From contig OZ018416.1 of assembly GCA_963969595.1 (NCBI GenBank), positions 14,276,065 to 14,340,064 on the forward strand: a stretch of 64,000 nucleotides of DNA, written 5' to 3'. Origin of the DNA: Neckera pumila (Eukaryota; Streptophyta; Bryopsida; Hypnales; Neckeraceae). Position 1 is the stretch's first letter. The number at the start of each line of letters is the position of its first letter. Below the pieces are notes generated by a model, which searched no databases, was not told where the DNA came from, and was given only the letters and a program-made list of their open reading frames with translations. Position numbers and translations under genes: made by a program. Shown one piece after another: positions 9,286 through 55,618 of this stretch.

Positions 9286-10416
9286 CTATTGTAGAGATTT
9301 GTTCTGGAAAACCTGGTTGACTCGGAAAGGTCCCATCCATTGGGTGTGTAGTTTACTTGGAAAATCCTTGTGACAATTGTCATAGAGGAGAACTAGTCCT
9401 CCCTCTTGGATTCTGTGATTGGCTGGAAGTTTCCGGTCATAGTCTTCGTTTCGCTTATTCTGCACTTCCAAGGTTTTCTCCAATGCCGTATTCCGGATTT
9501 CTTCCAATTCTTCAATGGCGAGGAGTCGGGGAAAGGTAACCTTCCTTGACTCCGCACTTTGAGCTGCCATGACTCGAAAAGTTTCCACGTCCAACTCCAC
9601 TCCATAGATTGCCTCCTGACCAAAGACCAAAAAGTACGGTGTCTTTCCAGTTGTGGTTTTCTCTGTGGTGTTGTACGCGTAGACTGCTGAAGGTAGTTTT
9701 TGATCCCAATCCGTCTTGTGAGCAGAAACCATCTTGTTCAAGATCTTACCAACGATCCCGTTTGCCCGCTCCGTCAATCTGTTTGCTTTAGGATTGTAAG
9801 GAATCATCTTCCGGTGCTTGATAAGGTACTTGGTCATTAAGCCTACAATAACATCATTGAGGAAATGGGTTCCATGGTCGCTGACCAGCTCGAGCGGATG
9901 ACCAAATCGCATGAGGATTTCTTCAAACAAAAAGTTTGCTGAAGTCTCCGCATCGTTCTTTTGTGTTGGTTTGGCCTCCATCCATTTGGTTGTATAATCC
10001 GTGGCTAGGATAATGTACCTCTTCTTCCGTCCACTAACCGGAAAGATAGGCCCAATAAAATCTATCCTCCATTTCTCGAACGGTGCTAGAGGATTGATAG
10101 GAGTTAGTGGCCAATGGTTCCGGAAGGACGAGGCTCCTGTCCGCTGACACTGATCACAACTCCGAACAAAATTCCTCACATCTCTATGTAAATAAGGCCA
10201 CCAGTATCCGATTGATTGGATGCAATTTACTGTACTTACAAAGGCAAAATGCCCTCCTGAACTTCCCGCATGAAGAGCTTGGATCACTTTCTTCCGTTCC
10301 GGGGGTTCTAGGCATCGCCTGAGAATGTCATCCGTTCCTAACTTAAAAAGGACTCCTCTAATCAAAGTATAAGGAGCCACTTTCCTTTGGAAAATTTCTT
10401 TCTCCTCGTGACTCAT
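9286..10416 (-). pseudogene. pol (IN): Integrase of gypsy element 1
   Basis: A 376-residue open stretch. Order: zinc-binding HHCC-type region (HAGSSGGHF ... CDQCQRTG, residues about 49-93); catalytic core with D in WRIDFIGPI (about 116), D in LVSDHGTHF (about 180) and E in RLTERANG (about 216), the DDE triad of retroviral-type integrases; then a C-terminal GPFRV region. It would insert the element's cDNA into host DNA. The core residues look intact, but the frame is separated from RNase H by TAG (10,414-10,416 region), so the polyprotein is broken. The 3' LTR follows after about 130 bases. Confidence 0.9.
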
Positions 10417-26776: not shown

Positions 26777-28450
26777 ATGCTACCAAGACGCTTGCCCCTT
26801 TCAAATCCGCAAAGGCAACATCTCCAAGATGACAGATTGTGGATTCGCGAGAGAGAGAGAGCTCGTCAAGTGAACGCTTCCAAACTCCATTGCCCATGCA
26901 CGGAGTGCCAAGGTCAACGAAGACTTCTAATCAGAAACGTGCGGGAACACCTTCTGCAAAATGGGCAGCACCCACACTTTAGGGTGTGGAGAGGGCCTGG
27001 CACTCAAGACTTGTCGGACGATGAGTGGGAGGACAAATTCTGGGGCCCTGGTGAAAACCGTATCGTAGGTGTAGACGCCCAAGTGGATACTCGAGGGATC
27101 CTGGAGAATGCATTCACTCAAGAAGATGGGACAAATGATATTGAGGACAGAGTTCTGGAAGAAGTGGCAGAGGCTTTCCGAACCGCTGACAAAGTGCAAA
27201 GTGACTGCAGCATTGGGTCAGCACATGGCCTGCCAAAGAATGACGAAGTTCCTTGTGATGGGGGGCCTGTTGGTGAAACCGGGGAAGCAGAATGATAGGA
27301 CCGGCAATTTCATCCTCATCAATTGGAGGAGGCAATTGAAGAACTTTATAGTAGCGCCAAGTGCACAAAGCTGGCAGCTACTATTTTGCTGATGAACTTG
27401 TGCACAGTGCATGGAGTGAGTAATACTTTTGCAAACGAGTTGTTCAATATCCTGCATGGTCGCCTGTTGCCTAATCGGAATTGTTTGCCAAAGAACTACC
27501 ATGCGGCCTGGTCATTGACACAGTCATTGGGACTCGCATACACCAGCATTCATGCCTATGAAAAAGGTTGCGTTCTTTTTAGAGGCTTACACGCAGATGC
27601 AATGCGCTGCCCTCAATGTGACGGGCCCAAGTATAGAGATGAGGCAAGGAAGATGTTACTCGTGAAGGTTTTGAGGCACTTCTCCATCATACCAAGACTG
27701 CAGCGAATGTTCAGGAGCCCAACCATTTCGAAACTAATGCTATGGCATTCGGAGAATAGGAGCGATCAAGAAGGTGGGGATGGTTTGGTCCGACATCCCT
27801 GTGACTCAAAGGCATGGCGGCATTTTCACAAGAACATTGACCCAGCTTTCGGGAACAACCCCAGAAATGTCCATTTTGCTCTCGCTGCAGATGAGGTGAA
27901 TCCATATAAGCAAAATCGGTCCAATTGGTCTACTTGGCCGGTATTGCTGCTGAATTATAATTTACCACCATGGTTGAGCACCAAGAAGTTTTTCATCATG
28001 CTATCCTTATTGATCCCGGGGAGGTAGTTAGTCACTTGTGAAAATTTTGATGTATTCTTAGAGCCACTCGTGGAAGAATTATTGCAGCTATGGGAAGGTG
28101 TTCCGGGTTATGACATCACAAAGGAGGGAAGTGCAAGAGTTTTCACGTTGCGGGCCATGCTCCTATGGACAATCCATGATTTTCCTAGTTATGGGGTGGT
28201 GGGTGTATTTTCCCATCAGGGATTTGCAGCTTGTCCCTGGTGCGGACCAAACTTGGGTGGACAGCACTCTGTCGAGCTAGGGAAGCAGACATTTGGTGGG
28301 ACAAGGCGGTGGTTGCCATTAGAACATAATTATAGGTCAGCTCACATGAAAGACTTATTTGATGGCTGCATGGAGAATCGATCAAGACCTCTACCTATGT
28401 CTGTTGAAGACCAGCTGCAGCATGCAGCCAACTATGAGGCCTATAAAGCA
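26777..28450 (+). pseudogene. TNP2: CACTA TNP2 transposase, N-terminal part (exon broken by insertion)
   Basis: One reading frame from 26,777. Residues about 35-80 form the transposase-associated zinc-binding domain (CPCTECQG ... NVREHLLQNGQHPHF). The TNP2 core follows: LLPNRNCLPKNYHAA, DGPKYRDEARK, WRHFHKNIDPAF and FSHQGFAACPWCGP. In-frame stops are TGA 27,293, TAG 27,296 and TAG 28,025, with no indels. The protein would cut and join CACTA ends in the nucleus. At 28,450 the frame is interrupted by the 16-kb transposon and resumes at 44,501. This is a dead copy with good family recognition. Confidence 0.85.
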
Positions 28451-28453
28451 ACA

Positions 28454-28482
28454 GGGTACACATGAGCTAATATGAGCCACTT
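28454..28482 (+). repeat. Left terminal inverted repeat of the 16-kb transposon
   Basis: Twenty-nine bases identical to the inverse of 44,468-44,496. Homology stops abruptly inward (GCGACATGG here; AGGACGTAA at the other end). Confidence 0.9.
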
Positions 28483-28730
28483 GCGACATGGAGAGGGTGC
28501 TTAACGGAGTCCTTTATGTGCAAGTGTGTTGATGACTGCCGTTTTTGACAAGCCTTGCTGGACTTCCACCTGGGGGTGCGATTTTGAAATGGCGCTCCCA
28601 CTTTTGTTCCTTGCAACGGAATCGGACTCCCGTTCTCTCTCTCCTCTCGACGTTACGGTTGACGAGGTGCTGTCAGGCCAGTTTTTTTGAGGTTTCATTT
28701 TCTCTTGTGTAGAAAAAGGGAGGAGTTACG

Positions 28731-28855
28731 GAGCTCGCAGCTTGGGGTTTAGGGTTTGAGGTCGCAACTTGGGGGTTTACGGAGCTCGCAACTTGGGGTT
28801 TAGGGTTTGAGATCGCAACTTGGGGGTTTACGGAGCTCGCAGCTTGGGGTTTAGG
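28731..28855 (+). repeat. 51-bp tandem repeat upstream of gene A, with telobox motifs
   Basis: GAGCTCGCA recurs at 28,731, 28,782 and 28,833, an exact 51-base period, about 2.4 units. Each unit holds TTTAGGGTTT, the inverse of the plant telobox AAACCCTAA, a promoter motif bound by telobox proteins. It sits immediately before the gene A start, so a promoter role is plausible. Confidence 0.75.
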
Positions 28856-28897
28856 ATTAGTTACGGGTTTACATTCACTGCGTTTAGGGGGGGGTTC

Positions 28898-29776
28898 ATG
28901 GATTCATCACTTGTACGTGGAGAGTCTGCACATCTTGTGAAACAGAGGAGGGCCTCGTTGGAGAGGAAGCCGCGACCAATGAAAGCTGGCGCCGGTGTTC
29001 CAGAGCTCTTAACGGAGCTAGCAAACTTGAAGGCTCAGACTCATGAGTTTTTTGAGACTGACAGAGGCTTGTGTGGAGAAGGGTTAAACCCTAAACTCGC
29101 TAGCGATATGGCCGTGGTGACACAAGAGAAGATAGAGGAGGTTTGGGGGAAATGTACAACCTACAAGACTACCAACAGTGCATTGCTGCCAGAGAGGAGG
29201 AGAGAACTCGTCAAGTTGTACGCAAAAATTTGTGGGAAAACGGAGGTCACAAACAACAAGTTCATGGCGTGGGTAGTTAAGGGAAACATTGCAAAACAAA
29301 TTGGACTGAAGGTCAACTGGGCCTCTGTGGCTTCGTCCACTTTGCTTACACTTGCAAGCCGTGTGGAGGGAGATTTGGTACGACGTGATCTTACATCTGA
29401 GCAGCTAGCTCGGCTGCAGGTTCTGGCCCCCCATGTAGCACCAAGAACTGCCGGATCAGATAAAAAAGGAGCGGTAGGGACACCTGAGCAAGATTTGAAA
29501 CCTGAGAGGTCTCTTTCTGCCATTGGTCACGTTTCAGATGCAGATCTTGCGACTATTGAGGAGGTGCTGCGAGTGGAAGAGGAATTCCTGGTGGGCAGTG
29601 AGAGGAAGCAGCAAATTCTCTTGGCAGCAAAGAAGACCATGGAGGAGAAGATAGTTATGTACAAGTTCGGAGTGGACGACCGACTGGCCGATGCAAAGGA
29701 AGCTGCTGAAAATGTGACAGCAGCAGAGGAGGCTTTGGCAAAGATCGATCTGCAGATTGCTAATGTCTTGGCCTCG
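28898..29776 (+). CDS. Gene A exon 1: helical N-terminal region
   Basis: Starts at the ATG at 28,898 (MDSSLVRGESAHLVKQ) and ends at donor GCCTCG|GTAATA (29,776), phase 0; 293 codons without stop. No known domain recognised in residues 1-200. Residues about 215-290 are a strong coiled coil (ATIEEVLRVEEEF ..., AAENVTAAEEALAKIDLQI). It is the first of at least four exons. The start is chosen because upstream frames have only a TTG and run through the tandem repeat. Function is inferred only from its place in the transposon as accessory protein. Confidence 0.65.
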
Positions 29777-30217
29777 GTAATACTTCCCGATTCTCTCTCC
29801 ATCCTCTACTGTTGTTAGCCATGGCTTGTCAAGCTTCAACTCTAGGTTTGTTGGTGATTAGGTGAAGGGTTTCAGGGTTTAGGGCGTCTACCTGAATGGT
29901 GGGTGCTTATTTTACAGGGTCAAATTTGCAGTTATGTGCACTTCACGAGTTTTGAATTCTCAGCTTCTTATCACTCGTGTGATTCATGGTTCTCCAAGTT
30001 TTAGGGTTCAACATTCACGGCAAAGCTCTGGGGCTCCCAGTCAAGCTCTATGTTTATTAGATTAAAGGAGTCAAAATTTGACTTGGTTGGGCCCAAATAT
30101 GCTTTTTGATTTTCAGATTATTCATGCTCTGGTTTTCATTGGCTTCTAAAATCTTAGGGTTTGAGGTTTGGAGATGCTGAGTACTTTTCCTCTTTCATTG
30201 CCCTTATGAAGGTCCAG

Positions 30218-30854
30218 GGTTACAGGGACAGACTTGACGAGGGGAATGACGGATTCACTTTGGGACTGAAGAAATTAGATGAACTGAAGTGTGATAGAGA
30301 CGTATTGGCACGCAAGCTAGACTTTGCTATTTTTGGCTCTGACGATGCTGCGAGGAAGTCCAAAAAAGCACAAGCCTTATACAAAGATGTATGTTTGGAA
30401 TTGAGGAACTCAGAATTGGACATACAAGCTGTTTGCGAAGAAATCTTGGAGTTTAGGAGGCACAAAGAAGCAGTGGCTAATGAAATTGAGAAGCTGAAGG
30501 CTGGTGCAGGTTTGCATTGCTGTCCGAAACCTTGTTTGCACCCTCACAAAGTTGAAGAGGCTGCAGGTCCTTTTATGCTTGAGCCTTGTGCTGTTTGCAA
30601 TCGTTGGTATAACTCGTATGACGTGGTCATGGCAAGCTGCCGACACTTTTACCATCCTTTCTGCATTACAAAATTGGCAGAAAGAGTAAACAGTTGTGTC
30701 ACTTGCAATGAGGTATTTGCCCCTAGCTGGTGGGCATCATTTGCATTCCAGAAGATGCAACCGGGAAAGGATGCTACAAGGCTTCAGTTGGACAAATCAG
30801 TGTGTGAGTTGAGCGACACAATGAAGTGCAGTTTTGGAATTCGAAGCCTAATGT
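30218..30854 (+). CDS. Gene A exon 2: coiled coil and RING-like zinc finger
   Basis: Acceptor GTCCAG|GGTTAC (30,218) joins exon 1 in phase 0; donor ATGT|GTAAGT (30,854) leaves phase 1. Residues 1-110 are charged helix (LKKLDELKCDRDVLARKLD ...). Then comes a cysteine/histidine block: CAVCNRWYNSYDVV, ASCRHFYHPFC, NSCVTCNEVF, spaced C-x2-C, C-x-H, H-x2-C, C-x2-C as in a RING/U-box-like finger. RING proteins commonly act as ubiquitin E3 ligases, but ligase activity here is only an inference. Another Cys-rich cluster (CCPKPCLHPH) precedes it. No stop in the exon. Confidence 0.65.
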
Positions 30855-32151
30855 GTAAGTGGCCTCATTCCGTTCTCTGCTGCTGGATTAGGGTTTGATT
30901 GAAAACAACCTTCTTCACCTCTGAATGTGCAACGTTGCTTGGAAATAAACCTCTGTCATTGATCAAAATTTGAAAGCTTCCTTCATAATCTGCTCCTCTA
31001 CTTGAATATGTACACTGTTGATTTATAAGTTTGCTAGGATCCTTCTATGCTTGCTGTGTTGCTATAAGTTCTGAGTTCTTGCTTGAAATTCTGCTTTCTG
31101 GCTAGAAAATGTGCGTGGTTGGTACTATGTTGGCTGTGTTGCTTAAAATGTAGCCAATCACTTGTTAGAATATGTGCTTGGGTGCTACTACCTTTTATTT
31201 GTTGCTAGAAATTCTACTTACTTCCTAGAATTTGTGCTTGTGTGCTAGTATGTTTCTAGATGACTGCTTTGATGCTCAAATTTATCCTTTGTTGCTGGAA
31301 TATGTGCTTGGATGCTACTATCTCTGCTTTCTTCCTAGAAATGCTACTTCCTTCCTAGGACATGTGCTTGGGTGCTACCGTATGTGTTAGGGTGCTAGTG
31401 TATGTGCTAGGGTGCTACTGTATGTGCTTGGTTGCTAAATTATGTGCTTGGTTGCTAAATTATGTGCTTGGTTGCTAAATTATGTGCTTGGTTGCTACTG
31501 TATGTGCTTGGTTGCTACTGTATGTGCTTGGTTGCTACTGTATGTGCTTGGTTGCTACTGTATGTGCTTGGTTGCTACTGTATGTACTAGGATGCTATTG
31601 TATGTGCTAGGGTGCTATTGTATGTGCTAGGGTGCTACTGTATGTGCTAGGGTGCTACCTGATATGCTGTGTTGCTAGAATTTTGGCTTTGATACTCGAA
31701 TTTATGCTTTCTTGCTGGAGTGTGTGCCTGGTTGCTACTATCTTTGCGTTTGTGCTCGAAATTGTACGTCCTTCATAGGGCATGTGCTTGGGTGATACTA
31801 GCTTTGCTTCCTTGATAGAATCTTTGCTACCTTGCTAGGAACTTTGCTTTCTTGCCTGATTATGTGCTTTGTTCCTTGAAGGCATGCTTTACTGTTTAAA
31901 TGGTTGCTTTCTTGCTAAAATGTTTTATTCTTGCTATGATTTCTAATTTGTTGCCACATTATGTGTTGAGATGCTGAAATGAGATTACAAAGTCTTCTCT
32001 TATTGGTATCAACTGATCTCTTCTATTCTACTCTTTATATTGGAGTTTCAGATCTTACATCTTTGAGAATGTGCTCTCCTATTGGTGGCTGGTCAGCCAT
32101 CATCCCTGCTCTTGTACTTAGAGAATTAGCCTCCTTTCTTGTATTTTGCAG
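30855..32151 (+). other. Gene A intron 2, homologous to the gene B intron
   Basis: Starts GTAAGTGG and ends TATTTTGCAG. It matches the gene B intron (39,484-40,759) in the sense direction of each gene: near its start (GGGTTTGATTGAAAAC; GCAACGTTGCTTGGAAATAA), middle (AATCACTTG / TAGCCAATCACTT region) and end (CAACTGATCTCTTCTATTCT; CTTACATCTTTGAGAATGT). Both hold the same 20-bp minisatellite. No coding content. Confidence 0.8.
31360..31665 (+). repeat. 20-bp minisatellite in the gene A intron
   Basis: Tandem units of TATGTGCTTGGTTGCTACTG and variants (GCTAGGGTGCTACTG), about fifteen copies, with looser TGTGCTTGGNTGCTA units on both sides from about 31,160 to 31,800. The Cys/Leu-rich peptide frame across it is a by-product. 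Confidence 0.9.
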
Positions 32152-32451
32152 TATCACAGTCAAAAGGTAAGCACTCAGATTGGGGATCCACTGGGTCCAT
32201 CCAACAAGTGCATTCCCTGCTACCATGCACGTCTGGCAGCAAGCTTGTTCCTGGGTCCTTTGTAAGTGGAGGATGTCAAACTCAGGATGAAGCAACAGAA
32301 ACAGGAAATGACGATTCACAATAGGTGGTTGACTCGCCAATAAAACAGCCCTATGCTGCTCGGCTGCACCAGTCCGGGGTCACGTAGGCTCTCTCAAGTG
32401 CTGTAGTACTGCTGGATAGTAATGCCCTGCGAGTGGTGGAAGCCACAGCTG
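32152..32451 (+). pseudogene. Gene A exon 3 (acidic/Ser-Gly-rich), with two TAG stops
   Basis: Acceptor TTTTGCAG (32,150-32,151) continues gene A in phase: SQSKGKHSDWGSTGS ... DEATETGNDDSQ. TAG at 32,322 and 32,385 interrupt a frame that otherwise runs to a donor at CTG|GTAAGAGC (32,451). Both stops are one change from CAG. No domain recognised. Confidence 0.45.
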
Positions 32452-32752
32452 GTAAGAGCCTGCGCATACATGTGTATTCATTTGATTTTGGGATGCCCTC
32501 GCGTACTTTAGCAGTCTTCTCGTGTCGAGTAAAGTAGGCTTGGGGTGGTAGTACATCGTTTACTGGGTTCTTGCAAGAAATGTGCAAGCTTCAATGACGA
32601 GTTGGAATGCCGTATGTTTTGCTGAGGTACAGTCTACATGTGCCTGTTCGCCACGAATCCTAATAATTGTGAACTCACATGTTTCCACTTGCATTCATGG
32701 TGTCGATCTTCTGAGTCACACTCCTCCTGTGCCTCCTTTCCGATGCATTCAG

Positions 32753-33167
32753 TTCGTTTTTGGAGGTGATTACCAATTTGTATGGTTCAGTAGGGGTCGT
32801 GCATGGAGAACTTGTTGTATATAATGTGGTAGAGGACAAAAGTAACGATGACGATGGAGCTGAGAAAGGGATTGAACAGGACGCACATGAAAATGAAAGT
32901 GGGAAGGGGATGCACGGGAGTGGAGAGGGGCATTATTCTATCACCGGTAAAAGAGCCCACATTCCTGCCTTGGAAGAGCAGGGGCTTCGAAAAAAGGTTA
33001 GTGTATCAAGGTTGGGGAAATCGAGTGGAGAACTGGAAAAGGCAGGTAAAGCTCAAGTGCCAGCCCCTACAATGCATCACACTTGCCATTCTCTTGCCAA
33101 ACAAGTTGAGGCCGAGGCAGCAGAGAAACCCAAGAAGAGCGGTAGGGGTAGGCATAAGAACAAGTGA
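32753..33167 (+). CDS. Gene A last exon: charged, basic C-terminus
   Basis: An open frame ending in TGA at 33,167. It begins near EVITNLYGSVGVVHGEL and becomes acidic (VEDKSNDDDGAEKG), then basic and ends SGRGRHKNK, an NLS-like tail. The upstream splice phase does not fit perfectly with the donor at 32,452, so the junction is uncertain. No known domain. Confidence 0.4.
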
Positions 33168-36100
33168 TCGTTTTCTTTGGGTTGAAAATATGTATCCCAG
33201 AGGTCTATTGCATATTCCCAACCACAACGTCATATATTCTGTACAGGTGGATGCTACAGGCCGCATGCAGGTATTTGTGGTTTTGTTTTGATCGAGAATT
33301 GGGACTAGGTTATTATTTTGAAGAGAATGGAGTCTGCACAGACAACAACTTGCTGAAGGTTTACTGGATGGAGATCAAGCAATAGAGTAAGCTTGATTGG
33401 CAGACTAGCACTCCCGCTTTTGTGTAAACCTGGTCTGCATGCTATACTTCTCTGAGCTAGTAGATACTGGATGTCATCTCTTTCAGACCAGCATAGATGG
33501 AGAAGAATTTGTACTTCACAGATGTACTGCCTAAGCAACTATATCAGAATTTTTGTTTCATTCATTTACTTGTAGTTGACGAGTGAAACGGATGTGGTGC
33601 AGGAGATGCTGCCTAAGTATATCTCTTTGCAGGTGGCCTGTGCAGTGAGACCAACAGGGGACATCAGTCCAAAAAAATGCCTTGATTGACAATAGCAAAC
33701 TGCCAACTTTATTTGCACCTAGATTTGTAGCAACAAGTTTACTCTATTGATTGCATGAGTGCCCACATCACGAGCTTGCAAAAACAGCTTATACAGTAAA
33801 ATTCATTGAATCATCATGCTACATGTTTGTGCCCTGCTTTCAATTTTTGGTTATAATGCTAACTTTGAGTACTGAATTTGCCTTATTTGCGATGCAGATC
33901 TACTACTTATTTATTACTTAGTGATTGCTACACATTCTGTAGTGCCAAACTAGTTTGCTTTGGGCTTAGTTCTTGTTATGGCCTTAGAACAAGTTATTGT
34001 GCACTTTTTTTGTTGTAAATATCAGAGTGTACTAATCATTTACTGCTTTGAAAATGTGAGTAAATTTATATTCTAGAAGGGAGTGAAAAGTTTAGTATAC
34101 ACTAAACTTGTCTTTAAAATTGTCTTCAAAATTGTCTTCAAAATTATTGGTTTGCCAAGTCTCATTGTCTCATTGTGCCATAGTGTCCACAATATTTAAT
34201 CCCTAATTGCTCTAGGCTTTTATTGAGCTTCTAGGAATTTGCTCCAAATTGAACAAAAAGACAACATTTGGATAAGTTATATCAATTTTTTGTAAATGTA
34301 ACCATACATAATCAAACTAGACACATTAGAGATCACATAGGATAAAAAATCACAACAATAATGCTTATGAATTGAAAGAATGTAATGTTTAATCATAAGG
34401 ATGCTAAAATTGCAAAAGTGATTTGAAGTCTTTTAATCCTTTTTTCACAAGTCAAATCTAAAATGTGGTCACCAAAAAAATGAGCTTTAAGGGCCTAACA
34501 TACATAACCGGAATCAAATTATCACTTTTCAAAAACTACTCAACAATTTTCTAATGGGATTCCAATGGCTAAAAAGGAATTTCTAATGGGATTTCTTATC
34601 CAAGATCTAGTTTATTTGAGGCTCGTTTCTAAAAGTCCTCAACACTATGGAGAGTAAAGATTGCAATAGACAACCTTGCAAAAAAACTTAAATAGAAAAA
34701 TCATAATCAATTATTATCAAAATCGGATTTATAGTGCTAAAACTAGACTTCAAAAAGAAAAATTTCAAAAATACATACTACTAAAAATAATTATTTGGTT
34801 AAGATTTATTTTAACTTCAAACTATTGTCAAGACTAAGAAGGAAAATACTGCAACAAAGTCACATTGTAAATTGCAACATAAGCATGTCAACAATTACAT
34901 CTTCATGTGTTCAAAATACACCTTGTTATTGGAAAGCAATATTTTTTAATATTAAATTTGATGCAAGTTTTTTATTTGAGTTCTTTACTACATGGTAAAA
35001 CTTTTGCCTATAGCACATGTTTGCTCATTTTAGTTGTAACCTTATTATGTATAATATATTATGAAATGCAAAATTTGTCCCTAATTCCAAGAGGATGAAG
35101 TGTCACCTTAGTCTATAAATGGAAAGTTGGGTATAATTCTATGAACTCTATTTTATGTATGAATTTTTTTTTAATTTATAGAAAAATAGATTTGTTTTAG
35201 GGATTATAGTTTTCATTTTCAGTTTCCTATCAATGTGTTATGTGTAAAAGCAAAAGGTATGGCATCCATGCTACAAAATGGATTTTGTAGGCAAAAAAAA
35301 AATGACAATCATTTATTAAAATTTGTTATAGAAATATTCTTGTGTATATGGAAAGATTTGATACTTTCTATTTGGGTTGCTAATAAAAAAGTCAAAGAAA
35401 GTCTTATGTTGGGGATAACCATAGCATTGATTTTCTTAAAATAAATGATTGCATTCATTTTTTAATTCAATTTTTATAGTTTTTTGAAAAAATCAAGTTC
35501 GACATGCTTTAATTTCCTCTCTAAACCCTAAATCTCATTATTGGGATTATATTTCATTTATGTATTTTTATCAAATTATTATTATTTTTAAATTACATAA
35601 TATAAGTATATAGATTTTTGGTTTGAAACAAGGTAGTATCTTCAATTCATTTTGTATTTTTGTATAGAGCTAGGTTGTTGATTTTTTTTTGATAACAATA
35701 TAGGTTTTGAAATAGTATTTTCTTAAGAACAAAATAGGCCTACATTCTTTTTTTATTTTTGTAGTGACCATATTCTGTACTTTTCCTTTTCTGTTACGAA
35801 CTAGGTCCATCAATGAGATTTGATTGGAAAATTGAGTAAAAAAGCACAGGTTTCTATACTACAAGGGCTTCTACAGTGTAGCAGTGGATGGTTCTTCCAG
35901 CAAAGTAGAAATTTAGGCAATGTCAGACAATGAGGCTCCACACTCATCTAGAGTCTTTGATTGGTTGCTAGGTTGCTTTCTTATCTAATTTGTATAATTG
36001 TCTTTTTAGTTTGACCTGCTCCATCGGTAGAAAGTTGCATACTAACCGAAAAGTTCTAAATTTTGAAAATGGTAGGTAAGGTCTGCCATGTCAGTTTTGT

Positions 36101-36600
36101 ACATGGTCATTGTATTGCCAGCATTTTCTTCTGAAAACGTATTTTTTGCAAGAGCAATGTATTTCTAGTCTTTTAGAATTATAGCCAATACTTTATGAAT
36201 TAGCTCATTTGAATTTCAATTGTGCTAAGCCCTTCCAAAGCCAACAAGAAAAGAAAAAAAATTAAAAACTAAAAAATGCAACTTCTAAGCCCTACTAAAT
36301 GTTGAAATATGGCCAAATACAAGACTTTTAGTCAGTGCACAGTATACAAGGAATTTCCCAAGACATTAGAATCATTCAAAAAAGCAACAAAAAATTAGTA
36401 TCACTGGTCAATTGCTACCATGTTCTATTGTCAAAATCTCATTGAAGGAAATCCTCATGAAGGAAGACAAACATTGCTATGTATACAGAAACTTGCACTA
36501 AAGCAACCAAATACATGCGCCATGCTTTGTATCAAACATCCTAAAGGGGTTAAAGAAGCAGTTCAACTGATGCACTCCAGCTCTAGTCGAGCTGGACGCT
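33168..36600. other. AT-rich centre of the 16-kb transposon
   Basis: About 3.4 kb of AT-rich sequence between the 3' ends of the convergent genes A and B. No frame over 90 residues and no domain or RNA gene recognised. It may carry termination signals for both genes. Composition resembles the 58-64 kb region. Confidence 0.5.
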
Positions 36601-36644
36601 GACACACTGCAGCTCATTATGCAACAATGCACGGTGCCTGGTCA

Positions 36645-36810
36645 TTATGCTGCAGATGCTTCAAGGCGGGGGGGGGGCTCAGTTGCCGCTTTTTTTTTGG
36701 AAAAATTGCTGGTCATCTATGCTGCAGATGCTTTCAAGGCGGGGGGGGGCCTCAGTTGCCGGTTCTTAATCAGAACAGTGGCTGCTCATTATGCAGCTGC
36801 AGATGGCTGG
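36645..36810. repeat. Imperfect duplication with long G-tracts
   Basis: Two similar units near 36,650 and 36,721 contain GCTGCAGATGCTT(T)CAAGGC followed by runs of 11 and 9 G and then CTCAGTTGCCG. A shorter GCAGCTGCAGATGG relic lies near 36,793. Confidence 0.75.
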
Positions 36811-36959
36811 TCACTGCTTTTTAATAAGGAAAATCCCTTGCTCCAGTTCAGTTCCCTTTTAACAAGGAGGGTATTTGTTTAGTGCAAATTCTTGAGTTAG
36901 TGATCATTTTAAGGATATAAGGACAAGTTTGCCTATAACGCGAGTCCAAATTATCTCCC

Positions 36960-37092
36960 AAAACGTGAAATGCTAGTGCAAGCCCCACGCACATGACATT
37001 CACACAACTGATACACCCCAAGCCAGTTACGTGAAATGCAAGTGCAAGCCCCACACACATGACATTCACACAACTGATACACCACAAGCCAG
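36960..37092. repeat. Two-copy tandem repeat (about 66 bp) downstream of gene B
   Basis: ACGTGAAATGC near 36,963 and near 37,029 each start a unit with GTGCAAGCCCCAC, ACATGACATTCACACAACTG and CAAGCCAGT. It lies just past the gene B stop (minus sense). Confidence 0.75.
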
Positions 37093-37307
37093 TCACAGCA
37101 GTTTAAGAATGCTATCGAAAAATCTGGCAGCAAGATGTGCAAGTTCACATGGCATACTAAGTGCAAGGCAACGATTTCTTGTAAGTTCATTGAAATGAAT
37201 TCGTATTAAATAAAATACGGTTACAAAAGGCATAGATCGCACCAAAAAACAATGTGTCCACACATAATGTACAATCTCCTCTTTCAAGACCACAGATTCC
37301 TCCACTG

Positions 37308-37770
37308 CTAATCTAACAATGCTGCGGCACAAGCAGCCTCATCGATAATCTCCTTCACATCAAGCTTCAACTCAAACCCCGCAAACCGACTCTTCACAGG
37401 GTGCGAGATAGGAGGCAAGCTGAATTTTGAAGTCAACAGCAAATGGCTATAAACCGAACTCGGTTCCTTATCGTTTCTCAACAAATAAGTACAACTACCT
37501 TCTTTAAGACGCTCGTACCAGAAACCTGAGAAAATAACGTCCCCAGGGCCATACCCATTCCCTTCTGGGTCTGTGAAGCTGTCTTGAAGCGTGCGTGTTG
37601 CAGTATGCACTAGCATTAGCCAATATGGCTCCTCCTGAAGTGGTGAACGCACAGCAACATTATCTCCAATGCAAAGCCCGTCGGCAATCCACTCACGGTC
37701 AAGACCAGCTTCCACCTCCTCGTTGTTGTTGTACAATTGGCGAGCTTGGCTTGGTCGCTTTGGAGTCAAC
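37308..37770 (-). CDS. Gene B last exon: transposase C-terminal region
   Basis: Joined to the preceding exon in phase 2 (AG|G TTG ACT) at an acceptor ending GAAAG (37,770), and ends in TAG at 37,308. It encodes LTPKRPSQARQLYNN, then IGDNVAVRS ... EPYWLMLVHTATR and VIFSGFWYERLKEGS, a small beta-rich module like the BAH-type C-terminal region seen in the related protein at 52,727. It probably binds chromatin or DNA; that is inference. No internal stops. Confidence 0.6.
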
Positions 37771-37875
37771 CTTTCGGTTGCACATGCAATTACAGATGAC
37801 AACAACATTCACTCAATCAGTAATGCCTCCAATAAATCAAGGCAGCATACCACGTAAGTCAGAACATCATGTAGC

Positions 37876-37982
37876 TATTTGCCAAAATACCCAACATAAA
37901 CCAATACAACAGCATTCAAGAAAGAGTCTATTTGCCAAAATACCCAACCTAAACCAATACAGCAGCATTCAAGAAAGAGTCT
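37876..37982. repeat. 53-bp tandem duplication in a gene B intron
   Basis: ATTTGCCAAAATACCCAAC at 37,877 and 37,930; each is followed by TAAACCAATAC and GCATTCAAGAAAGAGTCT. Confidence 0.85.
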
Positions 37983-38014
37983 GGCAAAGTCAGCTACAAA
38001 GGGAGAACTCCCAC

Positions 38015-39483
38015 CTGTGCAAGATGAAGCTAGGAGCATGATCTGATTGGGAACAAGGACTCTCATAGTCATAACCAAGACAAGCATGACAGAGGTAGCT
38101 CAATTGCCGATACTGTATCAATGTCGGGTCTCTAGCGGACACTGACCGGTACTAGTGATTTCCCATGCTGCCTGGCACTGTTTCAGCCTAAAGAGGGTCT
38201 GTTCTGTCCACCAAACCAGGTCCAGAGACTGGAATCTCCCAAAAAAATTTACTTGTAGTGCATCGTGCACCTCGTGGCCCCGCATGTGCTTTCTTGTATT
38301 CCTCTTTCAAGAACACCACAATTTCTGCAGCATTCTGGAGCTTGCGCCCATCCACCTTCATTTGTTCCTTTCGTATCTTTCTTTTTAGAAGAGCACCTGC
38401 ACCATCCACTTCCCCCTTCCCATGCCCACTTCCAAAATAATTCCAGCACATTTGGCACCTAGAATTTAAACTCACACCACTAGTGAGATTAGGATACCTC
38501 CTAATGAAATACCAAGCATGTGAAGACTTAAACTGACCACTACATCCATCAGACCAGACAATGTGATTAGAAGGTGAGAAACCTTGACTGCGCACATACT
38601 CCCACTTCAACATGAAGCACTTTTGCACATACAAAGAGTCGTGATTTTTGTCATCAAAAATGTAATAATGAATTTCTTTCAGAAGCAGTGGCTCTTCGTT
38701 TTCAGCTCTCCATGCAGGATTAGGTCTGTAGGTTATATGCACTAGAATGGTTATCTGGTCATTATGCCAATGCATTGATTGGATTTCGTTCTGAACCTTG
38801 AGAGTATAATTTTCAGAGAAATCCACACAAGATATGAGAGTGTCTGCAGGAACAGACCCAAACAGCTCCCGGAATTGGAAATCTTGCCAAGTTGCAATGT
38901 AATTATGAAGTACAAAAGCTTGTAGTTTGGGTTTGAGGTAAGCGATTAACTCACGCGATGGTGACTCTTGATACTCCATCGTCACCACTTTCTTTGGATT
39001 TCCATTTGCAGTTGTTCCCACTACCTTGTATCCAATGCTTTTCCACTTCACGAGCTGGTCAGTGCTTTCTTCAAGTGGACAAACCATAAGCAGCTGTAAG
39101 CCACAATTTGGACACTCTCCTAGTAAACAAGCCCGACGATGCCTATCAGAGAACTCGACTTTCTCACATAAAATGGATGACCACAAGTTTGTTAGTCATT
39201 CATATACTTCACGATGAGCATTGCAGAATCGGCCAGCATTTGCAGAATCCAGACCACCACAGACAAATTCACATTCACAATTGCAACTACTGTGAATTCC
39301 AAGCTTATCTACACGCATGGTGTCAAGAGCTCTCAGGAGCTCTAGCAGCTCCTGATGATACTTATAACAGGATGTATTCCATAGCCATAAACGCCTAACC
39401 CACCATGGTTTCATGCTCTCGAAAGAAGTCAAGCTACAGAGCAAGTTAGGATACATGGCCTTGAAGCTCGTGTAGAACTCGAG
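38015..39483 (-). pseudogene. Gene B central exon: DDE-type transposase catalytic domain
   Basis: Acceptor GTGCAG|CTCGAG (39,483) joins exon 1 in phase 0; donor CACAG|GTGGG (38,015). Order: LEFYTSFKAMYPNLLCSL, a Cys-rich finger (LLGECPNCG), then the RNase H-fold core with D in CVDFSENY (about 38,821), D in IVWSDGCSGQFKS (about 38,548) and D in GHGKGEVDGAGA (about 38,406), the putative catalytic triad. C-terminal RSVSARDP and HACLGYD follow. Three in-frame stops: TGA 39,196, TAG 38,188, TAG 38,152. The motif style matches a eukaryotic family of DDE-like proteins known from animals and plants; I cannot name it. Inactive as it stands. Confidence 0.75.
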
Positions 39484-40759
39484 CTGCACAACCGTAGCTG
39501 CCGTTAGAAATAAAACAGAGGAAGATACTAAACATTCACAGATATTGCAAAATGAGAGCAAGGACGCTAAATCTGTAAGTACAGGAGCAAGGTGATGGCT
39601 GGCTAGCCACCAATAGGACAGTACATTCTCAAAGATGTAAGATCTGAAACTCCAATAGAAAGAGTAGAATAGAAGAGATCAGTTGATACTAAAGCATGAA
39701 TTCTAGCAACACAGCATATTCAGTAGCACCCTAGCCCATACAGTAGCACTGAAGCACATATATTAGCACCCAATCACATACAGTAGCACTAAAGCACATA
39801 CAGTACCACCCTAGCACATACAGTAGCACTGAAGCACATACAGTACCACCCTAGCACATACAGTAGCACCCTAGCGCATACAATAGCACCCAAGCACATA
39901 CAGTAGCACCCAAGCACATACAATAGCACCCTAGCACATACAGTAGCAATCAAGCACATACAGTAGCAACCAAGCACATACGGTAGCACCCTAGTACATA
40001 CGGTAGCACCCAAGCACATACAGTAGCACCCAAGCATATACAGTAGCAACCAAGCACATATAGTAGCAACCAAGCACATATAGTAGCAACCAAGCACATA
40101 ATTTAGCACCCTGGCACATACACTAGGAAGGAAGTAGCATTTCTAGGAAGAAAGCAGAGATGGTAGCATCCAAGCACATATTCCAGCAACAAAGGATAAA
40201 TTCTTGCATCAAAGCTGTCATCTAGAAACATACTAGCACACAAGCACAAATTCTAGGAAGTAAGTAGAATTTCTAGCAACAAATAAAAGGTAGTAGCATC
40301 CAAGCACATATTCTAGCAAGTGATTGGCTACATTTTTAGCAACATAGCCAACATAGTACCAACCACGCACATTTTCTAGCCAAAAAGCAGAATTTCAAGC
40401 AAGAACTCAGAACTTATAGCAACACAGCAAGCACAAAAGGATCCTAGCAAACTTTGAAGCAATAGAGCTAATATTCAAGCAAGAGAAGAAGTATCGTATG
40501 AAAACATGTTATAAATCAGCGATGCACATATTCAAGCAAAGGCGCACATTCTCAAGGCATGAAACAAATTCTGAGCATTGACTAAGGTTTATTTCCAAGC
40601 AACGTTGCACCTTGAGAGGTGAAGAAGGTCGTTTTCAATCAAACCCTAATCCAGTAGCACAGTTGAAGGAGAGAACAGAATGAGGCTACAGGAAGATACC
40701 AAACATTAAGAGGATTGCAAGCAACGTGGAAGTATAAAGGAACTATATTTTTACAATAC
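39484..40759 (-). other. Gene B intron, homologous to the gene A intron
   Basis: From donor CTCAG|GTATTG (40,759) to acceptor GTTGTGCAG (39,484). Nearly its whole length is the inverse of 30,855-32,151, hence in the same sense relative to each gene. It carries the same minisatellite (39,720-40,125). Confidence 0.8.
39720..40125 (-). repeat. 20-bp minisatellite in the gene B intron
   Basis: On the plus strand units read CAGTAGCAACCAAGCACATA and CAGTAGCACCCAAGCACATA, about twenty copies. It is the inverse of the array at 31,360-31,665, with more copies. Confidence 0.9.
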
Positions 40760-41593
40760 CTGAGATACTTGTAGGAAATGGGTAGCATGGGAGACCCATT
40801 GCCGTGGACCCTCGTGGAAAGTCACAACATCTTTGCGGTTTGGGGACACTGTCGTCTCTTCCGCCCACCATTGCTCAACCAGAGTCTTCACATTTTCAGC
40901 AAGGGAGTCACTCCGAGTCTTTCTCCGATGGTGCAGCCAAAATGCATCTTGAGCAGAGTCTAGTAGTACTCGTCTTCCTTGCGCCTTTGAGATATTACGC
41001 CTGTCCATCCCTAACAGCCTAGCAATTCCTCTTCCACTGCCAACATTTCCCTTAGAAGCGAATGTACACAAAATATCCTTTGCCATTATAATTTTAGAAG
41101 TTTTCTGACCCACCAAATGCTCTCTCATGCCTTCTCGCACACTGCTAAAAACTGAATGTCCCAACTTCACAGATTCTAAGTTACTCAGGTACGTTGGAGT
41201 GATGTCAGCCATACAAGTGTGTCCCAAGAGTTTCTCAACAGTGAGAGCTTGTATGTTCCTATCATACTGTTGAAGACGCTGTGCTGTAAACGCAGCAATT
41301 TCCTTCGCTTCATGCGCACTAATTCTATTCACCTTAGATGCACACAAATCAAAAGTACCCGGCGATTCATAAGATGGATTGGAATCAATCGGGACTTCCC
41401 TGTTTGCGCCAGCTGCCTTCCTTGCCCTACAACGTCGTGTTCGCTCCCGACTGTCTCTTTTGTGTTTTTCAGCATACCATGCTTGGTGTGCCTCTTCTAG
41501 TCCACCTTGTGCCTCTCCTAGTCCAGGTGGGGCTGATTCTAATGCTTCAGCAGAAGCCATTTCTTCTGCCATTTTAGGAATTAGTGGCCTCAC
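40760..41593 (-). CDS. Gene B first coding exon: N-terminal DNA-binding region
   Basis: Exon from acceptor TTTTTTTAG|GTGAGG (41,593) to donor CAG|GTATTG (40,760), 278 codons with no stop. The likely start is ATG at 41,572 (MAEEMASAEALES). After a charged segment (KHKRDSRERTRRCRARKAAG) comes ISAHEAKEIAAFTAQRLQQ, then an HTH-like stretch (GSGRGIARLLGMDRRNISKA), then FWLHHRRKTRSD and EETTVSPNRKDVV, the pre-catalytic region seen in related DDE families. The HTH would bind transposon ends; this is inference. Confidence 0.65.
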
Positions 41594-44467
41594 CTAAAAA
41601 AAGAAGGTGCATACAGTAAGAAAGTCTGATTTTCTAGGTTGATCAAGCTCTTATCCCCTACACCCTAAACCCTAATTCACCAGTGATCCCTTTGGTGAGA
41701 AGAAATTGTTCATCAGCTAGTTGTGAACCACTATATTGGTTCACCCTTCAGGTAATTGAGAATATAAAAACTATGAATGAGTTTTTAAGTTCAAAAGTGT
41801 TAGTACATTAGATTAAACTATAACCATTAGTAAAAGGCTTTTAGTGCACAGGAAGAGAAACTAGATCAAAATTGCAACCCTAAAATATATAAAAGATAAA
41901 AGATACAAAAAGGAATCCAAAACAATGGTGAGAAGTTGAAAATGGATCTAAACATAAATAAAAAACCAATAAAAAAGAAGAAATATGGAAAAGCACAAAA
42001 GAAGTGATCAAACTTAAAATTACTATGAGAACACTAACATAGTGGTAGAAACTCTAATTTAGGCAATAAGTAGTGATTTAATGGAATTTCAGTAAATTAG
42101 TGTAGATGAAAGTGATTAGGAGTGTTAGTTAGTTAGTTAGTTGGGGTATTAGTCGAATTAGGGTTTGGTGCTCACTCTCTCTCTTGTTTTGTTTTGGGAG
42201 AGAATGTGTGAAGAGGTGGAAAGTGGACAATACATAGGAGAACAATGATTGCAAGGAGGTAGGTTAGGATGATAGTCAATTTGTCGAGTAGGTTTTCACC
42301 TTGTGGGGTAGAAAGTGGGTGAAAAGTGAGGATTGTGGAGGTCAGATGCAAAAAGTGTTGGGAAAGAAAGTCCGTTGCCCTTGCAAGTGGAAGCAGCAAC
42401 TTTGGCAAGCTATCGCGAGAGCATGGAGTAGCGGATGGAGCCGAAAATTGGTGGAATGGTGCGTCTTCAAGCTAGCTTTCCAACAAGACTCAACTCGACC
42501 GATTTGGAGCATAGATGAGGCAGTGGTGGTTGATTTTGTGGCGGAAGGCCTACTGCCGCAGGAATTTCGGAGCTGCAACTTGACGGACGATTGCAGAAGT
42601 GTGGCCAAGCAGAATGAGCTGAATTTTTGGCGCAAGGAAGATGGAGAAGTCAGCTTTCCAACGAGATAAGGCTCGCTCAATTTGGAGCCAGGATGAAGAT
42701 AGGGTGGACAGATTAGTAGGAAGAGGTTGGCTGCCCTATCGGCTATGAGTTGTGTTGTGTTTACTATGGTTCTTGTGGTCCCAAATGAATAAAAATGTAA
42801 TGATAATTACAATTCAGATTGGGTCTTGCATGTTTGGAGTACATTTCTCATGGGCTTGTATGATTTGGATGTTTAAAAAGAATGCATCATTAGTGAATTC
42901 TACTTGTTAGGGTCTTGAGGGCACATGTGGAAGCATTGCCCAAAGGGAGTCTAGATTAGGCACTTGGTGTGAGTGAATTGTGCTGTGATTAGTTTTTAGG
43001 ATGCAATTTAGTTCACTTAGGGCCTAAATTAGGCAATTTTAAGGTGATTTTGACCTAGGAAGTTTACTTGTCCTTTCAAAACATGTATGAAGATGAATTG
43101 GGAGTGTTAAGGCACAAAATGGGATGATTTGGAGGTGCTGCCCTTTTTTCACTTAGGCTTGATTTATCAAAAATTCACTAAAGAAAAAATTTGGAAAATC
43201 CATTGCTTGGAGGCATTTAGATTAGAGTCCACACACTCCTTTTCGGCCAAGTTTGTGGATGGGTTTTACCTCATGGTGAAATTCACTCACACTAGTCTTC
43301 ATGCCTTTTGTTGGGTATACTTCACATTACTAGCAGGACGCTTACACTGTGAAGAATACCCATTGCAACCACACTCCCCACACAAAACCCACAAAACCCA
43401 CGTCTGCAAACGCCCTGTATTCTTCCCGCGGCAAGCACTCATCAAACCCTCTCAAAACGAAAATGACGCAAACAATACTCCGTCAAACAATATATTAATG
43501 TCAAAAAACCTACCCAAAACAGCCTCATTTGCGCATCACACACGTTCTCACCCTGAACCCTAATTCCTTGTGGATGCATGGGTCCTGTCGTGCAAAATCA
43601 ATGACAGCAAGTAGTAAACCCTAAAGCAATATAACTTCAAGCTTGCAATGAGGTAGAACTTACCAAACCACTTATTGAACGTAACTTCCAGAATGCAATG
43701 AAACCCTACTTCAATAAACGAAGTTCTGAAGATCACCCAACCCTCCACTCTGCTCCACAGACCCTAAAGTAGCACCCTCCCCCATCGACCATCCTGGTTC
43801 TGCATTGTAGATGCAGCTTCGGCTTCTGACAGTTTCTTCACAAACAACAGGAAATGAAACGCACGCATAGCACCTGGAGAGTATGGGTATCCCATTTGAA
43901 CGCAGTCTTCATCGTGAGAGTGGTGGCGTGAAAGCAAAATCTGTACGTGCAACGAGATCCTACTCTCTGCAAGCCAAAAAATTGTTTTACAAAAGCAGCA
44001 TCTTCAGCGTCATGTGTCCACCAATGCAATGCAGTGCTCAAGGTAACTGGCGGCTGAAGTAGAACACAGCAGAAGCAGAAACACAAGCACAAGCAGAAGC
44101 ACTAGGATCCGAAAGAGACGACAGGAACTAAACCCTAGAAGTCCGCAGTTGGGTTCATCCGCAAATTGCGCTCATCCGAACATAGTCATCCACTAACGTA
44201 GCTGGCAACCTCGATCTTCTGAAGTCACTTATTCATCTTTCACTCAATAGTATTCATCCGTTTAAGGACCTTTTAGCACAAAAAGCACTGGTTTCATGAA
44301 TATAAAGTTGCTTTTGGGATCTCAAACGATGACTAAAAGTGGATGGCATTACAAAATAAGATTCTCTAAAGTTTATGAAAAAAGAAAACATAATCTTCAA
44401 ACCAAAATTCAATCACACTTTTCACACAACTATCCTAAAGCATTTAAAAAAGGAAGTGTTACGTCCT
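41594..44467. other. Right arm of the 16-kb transposon, no supported gene
   Basis: Holds the 5' flank of gene B, with AAACCCTAATTC teloboxes near 41,664 and 43,553. Frames at 42,301-42,669 (plus) and 43,129-43,563 (plus) lack recognisable domains and splice logic. TTTCCAAC(A/G)AGA with ATTTGGAGC recurs at about 42,477 and 42,655. An untranslated first exon of gene B could lie here. Confidence 0.4.
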
Positions 44468-44496
44468 AAGTGGCTCATATTAGCTCATGTGTACCC
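44468..44496 (-). repeat. Right terminal inverted repeat of the 16-kb transposon
   Basis: Exact inverse of 28,454-28,482; ends TGTGTACCC at 44,496, followed by AGCA. Confidence 0.9.
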
Positions 44497-44500
44497 AGCA

Positions 44501-52726: not shown

Positions 52727-55618
52727 TCATTCTGCATCAAAGGAAGGCAGAGTGCCCTTGATAACTTCAACTTGAGCAGCTGGTATCTTCAAAACACACT
52801 GAGTCGTGTCTTTTTTCACCCTAGACTTCCACGCTGTCACAAGAGAATTGGTATTCTCCCAAACTGGATCTTCGGTGTCGTCTACTTTCTAACGCAATCC
52901 TTTGTTCAAGTCCCAACCATGATAAAGCTCTTGAACATTTCGCTCTCGTGACGTAGGCATAAAGTATTGAATCTTAATACAATTAGGATGCTCTGGATTA
53001 CTGAAAGGGTCAGACAAGGCCCTAGCAATCCATATCGGCTTTGGATCTTCACTAGCAAGTCAAAGTGCAAGAAAATATCCTTCGTAAACATCACGCGCCA
53101 CTCGAAAAGATGGATTAGGGCGATTGCGAAGGTTTCCAACAAATGCATCATCCTCAGCAAACTCCTCACAAACCTCACGGTCGTCATCAAGTTCGTCTTC
53201 CTCTGTGGTTTCTACTCTAGTGGAGGGCCAAAAGCCATCCTTCAATTCTACAGATGGCTCAATTGGCTCCTTCAACGTTGCATTCACAGCTCGCCAATAC
53301 AACACCAAATGCTCAAAGCGCCTTCTAGCCTCCCCACTTCCATCTTCATTGCATAATGTTTCCCAATTTTTGATGAATCCTGACAATCCCTTGTAAATCT
53401 CGTTCACAGTCCTCATAGGAAGGTGGACAACAGGCAATGGCTGTCCACGAGGCCATAGGCTCTGTCCCTGGGAATCTTCTTTCCACAATATAATCCCTTC
53501 TTATGAGGAGTTTGCTGAGGATGATGCATTTGACTCCTCACAAACCTCACGGTTCTTCTGGAAGCCAATCACTATCTGTGCAGTAGAACTTGTACTTCAT
53601 GATAGGCAGACCTGCGGCATTCAAATAGAATTTGAATTGTTGGGCCTTGGTATGGCCAACAAGTGCATCTTCTCCATCACAAATGCAATCTTCAATGAAG
53701 GACATGAAATCTAGCACTTCTTCAATGAGATGAGGAATCGTAGGCACCAAATCAACATCCATGAAGGACTTCATGAGTGATGGGATGGTAGGGAAATTTT
53801 CTTTTTTCAACTGCACACTCCATCTCCCAAACAAAGCATCGATGTCATCATGAGTGTGACCAACCAGCATGAAGCTAACAGGAACTTCACGGAAAATCTT
53901 CTTTGCAACAAGGAGAGACCAAAATGCAAAGACAAATCTATTCTTATTGTCTCCTGTGGCGTTGTCCATCTGAACGTTCAGCACTGGAGGCAATGCAGTT
54001 GCGGCAATTGGTTCTTCAGGTATTGGCTGGAGTGAGGATTTGCACATGTCTGCGCTTTGCAAGACTGCACAAAAGAGAGGAGCCGATCCTGATCTAGCAA
54101 ATAACTCTCGTGAGGAGTACTTGGGAGGTAGTTCAAGGTCGCGCAAGAGCTTGGCAAACGACCCCATCGTATAGTTTGAATCATGATGAAAGATATCTAG
54201 ACCATAATGGGCGTAACGCACATCACCATGTCCGTGAGCAATCATACTTGTCACAGAGACTGGTAGCTTCATGAGTCCATCTACTTGTTTGCTTTTGTGT
54301 GAAAAGACAGGAGAGGCTGTCTTTGCTTGGTCCATTTTGTCATGCATGATTGTCAAGCATTCATGAGGGTATGCACTGGATTTATACCGATTGGCATAAT
54401 ATTGGTCCCGATGTGCCCGAGCAGTAGCTAAATGCTTCTCTAATAGAAAGGTCCACTTTTGCTTTGAACTACTAAGAGCCGCCCTTCTAAGGGTTTGCAA
54501 CTTATCACACTTAGAGCATCATGCAAAGTTGTCACCAAGCTTCTTGGCATAGTACTTAGGAAAGTTCAACTTCCTAATCTTGCTGATATTCGATGGTGAC
54601 ACACTCTTCAATCCAAAGACTGCGTTTGTTGCATTTACATCTGGAAGGGTATCTTTCCACGTGAAGGTGGCTAGCAAGACCATGGATACTACTTTCTCTC
54701 TAGTGGGAAGAGAATGAGTGCGATGCGGCATGTGGTCTGCTTGCCTCTTGAGAATGGCCTTCAACGTTGCGGTAGCTTGCAATGTATGCTTCCGGGGCTT
54801 AAGCCTCCCGAGATTGCCATGAGACTGAGCTTGCTCCCCTAGTGCAGCATATCCTTGGAAGCAATGAAATGTGGACTCCGACACACCTGAAATGTGGCAC
54901 CAAGCTGCCAGACAAACATCAATTCCTTCCATAGTGACCACTCTCTTTCCTTGAGCATCCCGATGGACTTATTGATGTACATCCAGCTTCATGTGGTGCC
55001 GGAATTCAAATGTAGTTTGGTGATAAATCCGTTCTCGGAACGCCCGAATTTTGTCTCTTGGGAACGGTTGAACATAGTTACTTGTGCATCACGTTTTGCT
55101 AGAAACAGCATTTATGGACAATTGGGTGAAAAGTTCCTTGGCCTTCACACAAGTCTCAGGTGTGGCATTCCGGACAGTACTTGTATAGGGCCTTCCAGGT
55201 GAAGCTGGTGGCCATCCATGAGTAGCTTGCCAAAGATTGTAGTTGGCTTGCACTTCATGATCAAGAAGGCTTGCTCCATCTAGAACCACTTGTCCAATGG
55301 GCCACGCATGAAGGGAATACTTCCAATCCGCAAGTACATGAACAACATCAAGCGACTTCAAGATTTGCACAGTGACGAGAGAATCTCCAAGCGGTCCATG
55401 ACATCCCAAAACAAGGTCAGAGTTCACATTATGCACTATCCCCTCCACTACAGGTAATCCCGCGGCACTGCGAAGTTCAACAACTTGAGTGCTCTAATGT
55501 CTTTGAGGAATACCCTCGCAGTCTGGAATGACTTCAGGGCCCTCAGGTGCATTCTCGATCTCTCCATCATCAGATGAATACTCTGGCACGGGAAGGATAA
55601 CGGGGTTAACTTTCAACG
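52727..55618 (-). pseudogene. DUF7869-type DDE transposase-like protein, decayed
   Basis: Starts upstream of 55,600 in an acidic segment (EYSSDDGEIENAPEGPE). One frame from 55,618 to 53,547 carries FLAWCHISGVSESTFHCFQGY-like text (AAWCHISGVSESTF), GNLGRLKPRKHTLQA, the FAxCSKCDKLQ knuckle, MHDKMDQAKT, NVQMDNATGDNKNRF and LVGHTHDDIDALFGRW, typical of the eukaryotic DUF7869 family with RNase H-like fold and acidic triad. In-frame TGA (three at CGA-like codons), TAA and TAG occur; a 50-base filler shifts the frame at 53,503-53,552. The C-terminal part ends at TGA 52,727 and holds a BAH-like VYEGYFLAL ... KPIWIARAL module. No introns are evident. Dead copy. Confidence 0.8.
53503..53552. other. Templated filler insertion
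   Basis: Bases 53,533-53,552 copy 53,161-53,180 directly; 53,505-53,532 is the inverse of 53,140-53,167. The two abut, interrupting the pseudogene between GAAGAA and GGGATT codons. Confidence 0.85.

Follow-up and report, generated by a model that had tools for sequence, protein, structure and literature searches.

A 16-kb DNA transposon inside a CACTA TNP2 gene of the moss Neckera pumila, with terminal inverted repeats and genes for a DDD-type transposase and a RING-like protein

Which kind of element interrupts the TNP2 gene of a CACTA transposon in Neckera pumila, and do the two genes inside it belong together? We studied this question in a window of 64,000 nucleotides (assembly GCA_963969595.1, contig OZ018416.1, positions 14,276,065 to 14,340,064, forward strand). 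The inserted element occupies positions 28454-44496 of the window (16,043 bp) and contains two convergent genes, gene A on the forward and gene B on the reverse strand. Because copies elsewhere in the genome, empty target sites, derivatives sharing the same ends and predicted protein folds agree, they support the original prediction of a terminal inverted repeat (TIR) DNA transposon within TNP2 that encodes a transposase of the DDE type, here with three aspartates (DDD), and, in its second gene, a RING-like protein. With high confidence, we read the element as a cut-and-paste transposon, probably of the Sola superfamily, in which gene B encodes the DDD transposase and gene A, in convergent orientation, a RING-H2 protein.

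Ends, copies and target site

The boundaries of the element are given by the following features (window coordinates).

28454-28482, + strand: left 29-bp TIR, matching the right end perfectly
44468-44496, − strand: right 29-bp TIR, matching the left end perfectly
28450-28453, no strand: 4-bp target duplication, left-hand copy, which today reads AACA; TNP2 relatives mostly have AGCA at this site
44497-44500, no strand: 4-bp target duplication, right-hand copy, which reads AGCA, from comparison with empty TNP2 sites

We searched the genome (339.5 Mb in 18 contigs, with the window on contig C9) for the 29-bp end, allowing up to three mismatches. It occurred 32 times, versus 0 times for the reversed control. 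The perfect inverted ends predicted originally were borne out. The ends could have occurred independently of each other, but 26 of the 32 formed 13 pairs, i.e. 13 copies with both ends. Only six fell outside full-length pairs: one in a 450-bp derivative, two in back-to-back remnants on contig C6, and three in copies with the other end unmatched. Ten copies fetched whole and the window copy measured 14,076-16,440 bp and could be aligned along their full length. The other copies that were read start with GGG (AGG or GGA in two copies, GAA at one end); hence the left edge lies at 28454 and the ACA at 28451-28453 is flanking sequence. The left edge predicted originally, at 28451, was 3 bp too far out.

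When the element and one 4-mer were removed, the TNP2 reading frame was intact, as had been predicted. TNP2 was confirmed on both sides of the left junction, with DUF4218 to the right; the host CACTA element is known here from this coding sequence. Eight TNP2 relatives, 86-92% identical, span the junction without an insert, and all eight match both sides, although a locus with different flanking sequence had been considered beforehand. The junction reads GCAGCAGT in five of them, GCAGTAGT in two and GCAACAGT in one. The two target copies in the window share three of four letters. As the closest uninterrupted relative (92% identical) has AAAGCAGCAGTC at the junction and thus shows AGCA, the sequence comparison indicates that the site before insertion was most likely AGCA and that the left copy mutated afterwards to AACA. 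The AGCA expected on both sides was therefore confirmed on the right, whereas the AGCA at 28447-28450 is not the duplication.

Exact 4-bp duplications flanked 17 of the 22 pairs tested: seven of 11 window-type copies, the relative D1, two of three further full-size relatives and all seven short derivatives. When the flanks of the first 12 pairs were cross-paired as a control, there was one match in 132. Together with the empty TNP2 sites, these duplications rule out a target-site duplication (TSD) of any length other than 4 bp, a point that had been left undecided. The five pairs lacking an exact duplication were the window copy (AACA/AGCA), c2, c4, c13 and a relative at C2:10.18. Two of them are explained, the window copy by the change in its left flank and c13 by exchange with an inverted neighbour. 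The latter two copies, at C7:15828655-15844957 and C7:16017892-16034183, are inverted and have swapped flanks (AATA/ATGA and ATGA/AATA), as expected from recombination between them that inverted the intervening 173 kb. The element copies have thus reshaped the genome, leaving the mark of an inversion on C7.

Two further copies, at C1:26579590-26593874 and C1:26625839-26640083, share equal flanks in inverted order and represent either one insertion within an inverted duplication or an assembly palindrome. One of this pair (26.58 and 26.63 Mb) would then be a duplicate or assembly copy, which is what one would see if the whole 16-kb block were an artefact of assembly or duplication, or if it consisted of two independent repeats that happen to be adjacent. 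The probability of that explanation is practically negligible, since the other copies have different flanks, 4-bp duplications and empty sites, and these independent insertions refute an artefact.

The transposase gene and its RING partner

Both genes have several exons and converge within the element, as predicted. Their features are as follows.

40760-41572, − strand: gene B exon 1, N-terminal region (gene model)
38147-39483, − strand: gene B exon 2, encoding the catalytic core; it contains D492, D583 and D631 (codons 38823-38821, 38550-38548 and 38406-38404; relatives' alignment and fold prediction)
37308-37770, − strand: gene B exon 3, C-terminal BAH-like domain (domain comparison)
39196-39198, − strand, also 38188-38190 and 38152-38154: premature stops in the window gene B (copy comparison)
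28898-29776, + strand: first exon of gene A, from its start codon as far as a GTAATA donor (copies and relatives)
30158-30854, + strand: second coding exon of gene A, bounded on the 3' side by a GTAAGT donor; given as open frame with a provisional 5' boundary (copy comparison)
30587-30706, + strand: RING-H2 (C3H2C3) finger of gene A (PF13639, E 2.5e-4, below the curated cut-off; BRE1 RING, E 0.0016)
32715-33167, + strand: last exon of gene A (tentative), an open frame up to the TGA at 33165-33167, with a provisional 5' boundary (copy comparison)

Gene B was modelled with three exons (41572-40760, 39483-38147 and 37770-37308; 870 codons), with splice sites inferred from consensus. The multi-exon structure predicted originally was retained, but a fourth exon boundary at 39196 was rejected, as this position is an in-frame TGA that is a sense codon in nine of the ten other copies, the tenth being frame-shifted. 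With three premature stops, the gene B of the window is broken.

The predicted D...D...D core was confirmed at codons 492, 583 and 631, and the three aspartates are invariant across 24 relatives. Folding, proposed earlier as a check on the DDE assignment, predicted an RNase H fold of the integrase/Mos1 type for the core of one relative, in which the aspartates terminate strands 1 and 4 and directly precede the helix that follows strand 5. On this structural model, gene B is predicted to encode a DDD transposase. Its C-terminus resembles BAH domains, an assignment of moderate confidence. Pfam searches of gene B and the 24 relatives matched no DDE family, a sequence search against solved structures gave nothing for gene B, and a viral structure library had no match at E 0.001 or better. 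The predicted helix-turn-helix (HTH) region at the N-terminus did not hold up: a Pfam scan of the window protein gave no HTH match, and HTH_22 appeared below the cut-off (E 0.0015) in one distant relative. Named relatives of gene B occur in the moss Ceratodon, the liverwort Riccia and the charophyte alga Klebsormidium.

Elsewhere in the window, a DUF7869 protein at 53547-54518 (− strand; PF25273, E 2e-44) has motifs, QMDN..GDNKN and VGHTHDDID, that look DDE-like. A relationship between this protein and gene B was rejected at an hhalign probability of 0.5%, with a single sequence on one side of the comparison.

The finger of gene A follows the pattern C-x2-C-x13-C-x-H-x2-H-x2-C-x10-C-x2-C in the window and in D1, where the RING was found again (E 6.1e-5, below the Pfam cut-off) with the same eight ligands and the same spacing. 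The RING-like finger named in the original prediction was confirmed. In D1, exon 1 of gene A is interrupted by stops, so that this copy has decayed too. The database relatives of gene A exon 1 number 14, with identities of 37-93% and a query coverage of 44-59%; all 14 stop short of the RING exon, and six gave weak matches to hAT-like_RNase-H (best E 0.0012, below the cut-off). Judged by its finger, gene A may encode an E3 ubiquitin ligase.

Conservation of the gene pair and decay of the copies

The catalytic exon of gene B had at least 125 matches in the genome, merged into 110 loci; these are lower bounds, as 120 of 238 candidates were scored. A degenerate end, GGGTNNANNNNNNNTAATANGAGCCA, built from the window type and D1, occurred 254 times with at most one mismatch, versus three times for its control. 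Among the matches listed there were at least 24 pairs of facing ends, 14 of 11.6-16.3 kb and 10 of 362-450 bp. All 14 full-size pairs listed contained both genes, whereas the short derivatives (about 440 bp) could hold neither. Copies lacking the genes had been named as a point against the element, but gene-less derivatives are expected as non-autonomous relatives. Since they share the ends and the 4-bp duplication, we suggest that they were moved in trans.

The original prediction asked whether gene A always accompanies gene B. With the RING exon of the window as probe, we obtained 84 matches at 80 loci. All 15 gene B loci of at least 90% identity had a RING locus no more than 20 kb away, as did 21 of 27 with 50-89%, seven of 28 with 44-49% and six of 40 below that. 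Of these 49 pairs, 47 were convergent, and in one of the two non-convergent cases a convergent RING exon belonging to that locus lies 10 kb off, beyond the RING of a neighbour. The RING exon of D1 as probe added eight pairs, all convergent. In total, 57 of the 110 gene B loci had a RING exon within 20 kb, in convergent orientation at 55. Uniform placement of the 80 loci would give about 1 in 110, a rough expectation since transposons cluster; clustering does not explain the convergent orientation. Two observations weigh against a fixed pair: 53 gene B loci lack a RING partner, and 30 of the 80 RING loci have no gene B nearby, although most of the latter score weakly and are possibly host RING genes. 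Many relatives of gene B lie on contig C11 (12.3 Mb), which is possibly a chromosome rich in transposable elements or a sex chromosome.

Plant transposons such as Mutator-like elements (MULEs) capture pieces of host genes. Gene A might likewise be a captured host RING gene, passenger cargo of a genuine transposon without a role in transposition, and the resemblance of its finger to BRE1 makes a host origin possible. We consider this quite improbable. Even subfamilies in which gene A is only about 30-50% identical have it next to gene B with its orientation unchanged, and D1 retains all eight zinc ligands at the same spacing. Chance cargo would hardly persist so long, nor would it keep its convergent position. 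As far as sequence comparison can tell, gene A has remained next to the transposase gene and convergent with it while the family diverged deeply.

In our preferred reading of a Sola-like element with a functional RING partner, the gene B transposase would bind the GGGT...TAATA.GAGCCA ends, excise the element and insert it by way of staggered cuts, which would produce the 4-bp duplications. The BAH-like tail would hold the transposase to nucleosomes. The gene A protein would be an E3 ubiquitin ligase in the service of transposition, with chromatin or host silencing factors as its most likely targets. A bolder version, which we regard as rather unlikely, is an old lineage, its partner gene drifted to about 30% identity, with a chromatin kit of its own: the tail would read nucleosomes while a BRE1-like RING ligase would modify histone H2B or remove silencing factors. 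If true, this kit would allow the element's expression as well as its movement out of or into methylated chromatin. More generally, the retention of a RING gene through deep divergence suggests ubiquitin signalling in the relation between transposon and host, and the BAH-like tail suggests chromatin targeting, for which chromodomain integrases offer a comparison (PMC7466625, cited passage). Both roles are now directly testable.

Across five coding regions, the 11 copies differed by 1.6-4.5% (median 3.4%). C to T or G to A accounted for 700 of 887 changes from the majority, 254 of these at CpG, a pattern that would point to copies being methylated and silenced. Variable sites in gene B showed no bias over the three codon positions (42/47/31 in exon 1, 53/49/55 in exon 2 and 27/25/21 in exon 3), which implies that copies decay without visible selection after insertion. 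Further features concern the introns and an insert.

31027-31756, + strand: intron segment with 20-bp minisatellite, after the gene A RING exon; inverted copy of 39725-40454, 86%
39725-40454, − strand: segment of gene B intron 1; inverted copy of 31027-31756
41722-43281, no strand: insert of 1,560 bp, unique to the window copy among 11 copies read

Each of the four window-type copies that were examined has the inverted intron duplication (730 nt, 86%, minisatellite included) and D1 lacks it, so it arose within the window subfamily. Read-through transcripts of both genes could fold back on themselves; silencing triggered by such transcripts has been proposed for Mu killer (PMC3440606, cited passage). 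The insert had no clear duplication and no clear inverted ends upon inspection. Outside the element, a long terminal repeat (LTR) retroelement has its frames for reverse transcriptase, RNase H and integrase at 9286-11802 (− strand).

Comparison with known systems

CACTA (EnSpm) elements have CACTA ends, a 3-bp TSD and a TNP2 transposase. Our element has ends GGGTACACATG, a 4-bp TSD and no tnp2 match in gene B, and only the surrounding gene is TNP2; a CACTA identity was thus rejected. KDZ/Zisupton elements, with a TSD of 8 bp, were rejected on TSD length; one of the 24 gene B relatives gave a weak CxC7 match (E 0.11). Mutator elements, including MuDR of maize, have relatively long TIRs and TSDs of 7-12 bp (PMC10741241, cited passage), versus 29 bp and 4 bp here, which excludes them; none of the 24 relatives has a Pfam link to MuDR.

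Sola elements are described, in the cited parts of PMC10741241 and PMC9033089, as having a DDD transposase, a 4-bp TSD and TIRs of 11-1124 bp and variable sequence, with sizes mostly of 2-9 kb and some above 15 kb, and as occurring in the moss Physcomitrella. The element resembles them in its predicted DDD residues (invariant and suitably placed in the modelled RNase H fold), its TSD, its short ends, its size and its moss host. Because these features fit, we consider membership of Sola, compared by description only, reasonably likely; the family itself is probably not new and belongs to a known superfamily. Less probable is a superfamily of its own, likewise with DDD residues and 4-bp duplications. 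It would agree with the lack of a Pfam DDE match in all 24 relatives and with the very different ends of the Sola groups, of which Repbase holds Sola1, Sola2 and Sola3 as distinct (PMC4455052, cited passage), yet every Sola feature quoted above was found here.

The conserved convergent two-gene anatomy, the RING partner and the putative BAH-like tail of the transposase may be new; the latter two are not mentioned in the cited passages on Sola. The open-licence literature yielded no BAH-domain transposase by title or abstract and no RING or ubiquitin-ligase partner conserved with a transposase, both being weak evidence of absence. The Sola2-Fanzor elements of slime moulds likewise combine a Sola-type transposase with a second protein and a 4-bp TSD, but as described in PMC3627910 (cited passage) that protein is the TnpB-like Fanzor1 rather than a RING protein, and the TSDs are AT-rich. 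VANDAL/VANC elements and fungal TET/JBP transposons also carry an extra protein, which acts on host silencing (PMC5735166, PMC10398659, PMC12730594, cited passages); their proteins are different, and gene A may share that role. Finally, anonymous DFAENY proteins of animals and protists, such as P0023 (23%) and P0024 (29%), retain the D-F-x-(E/Q)-N motif, the second D and HGK..CDG. With the present element, an anonymous eukaryotic protein family (DFSENY / SDGCSGQF / HGK..DG) becomes a transposon for which the ends and the target duplication are defined and which has a second gene as well as non-autonomous derivatives.
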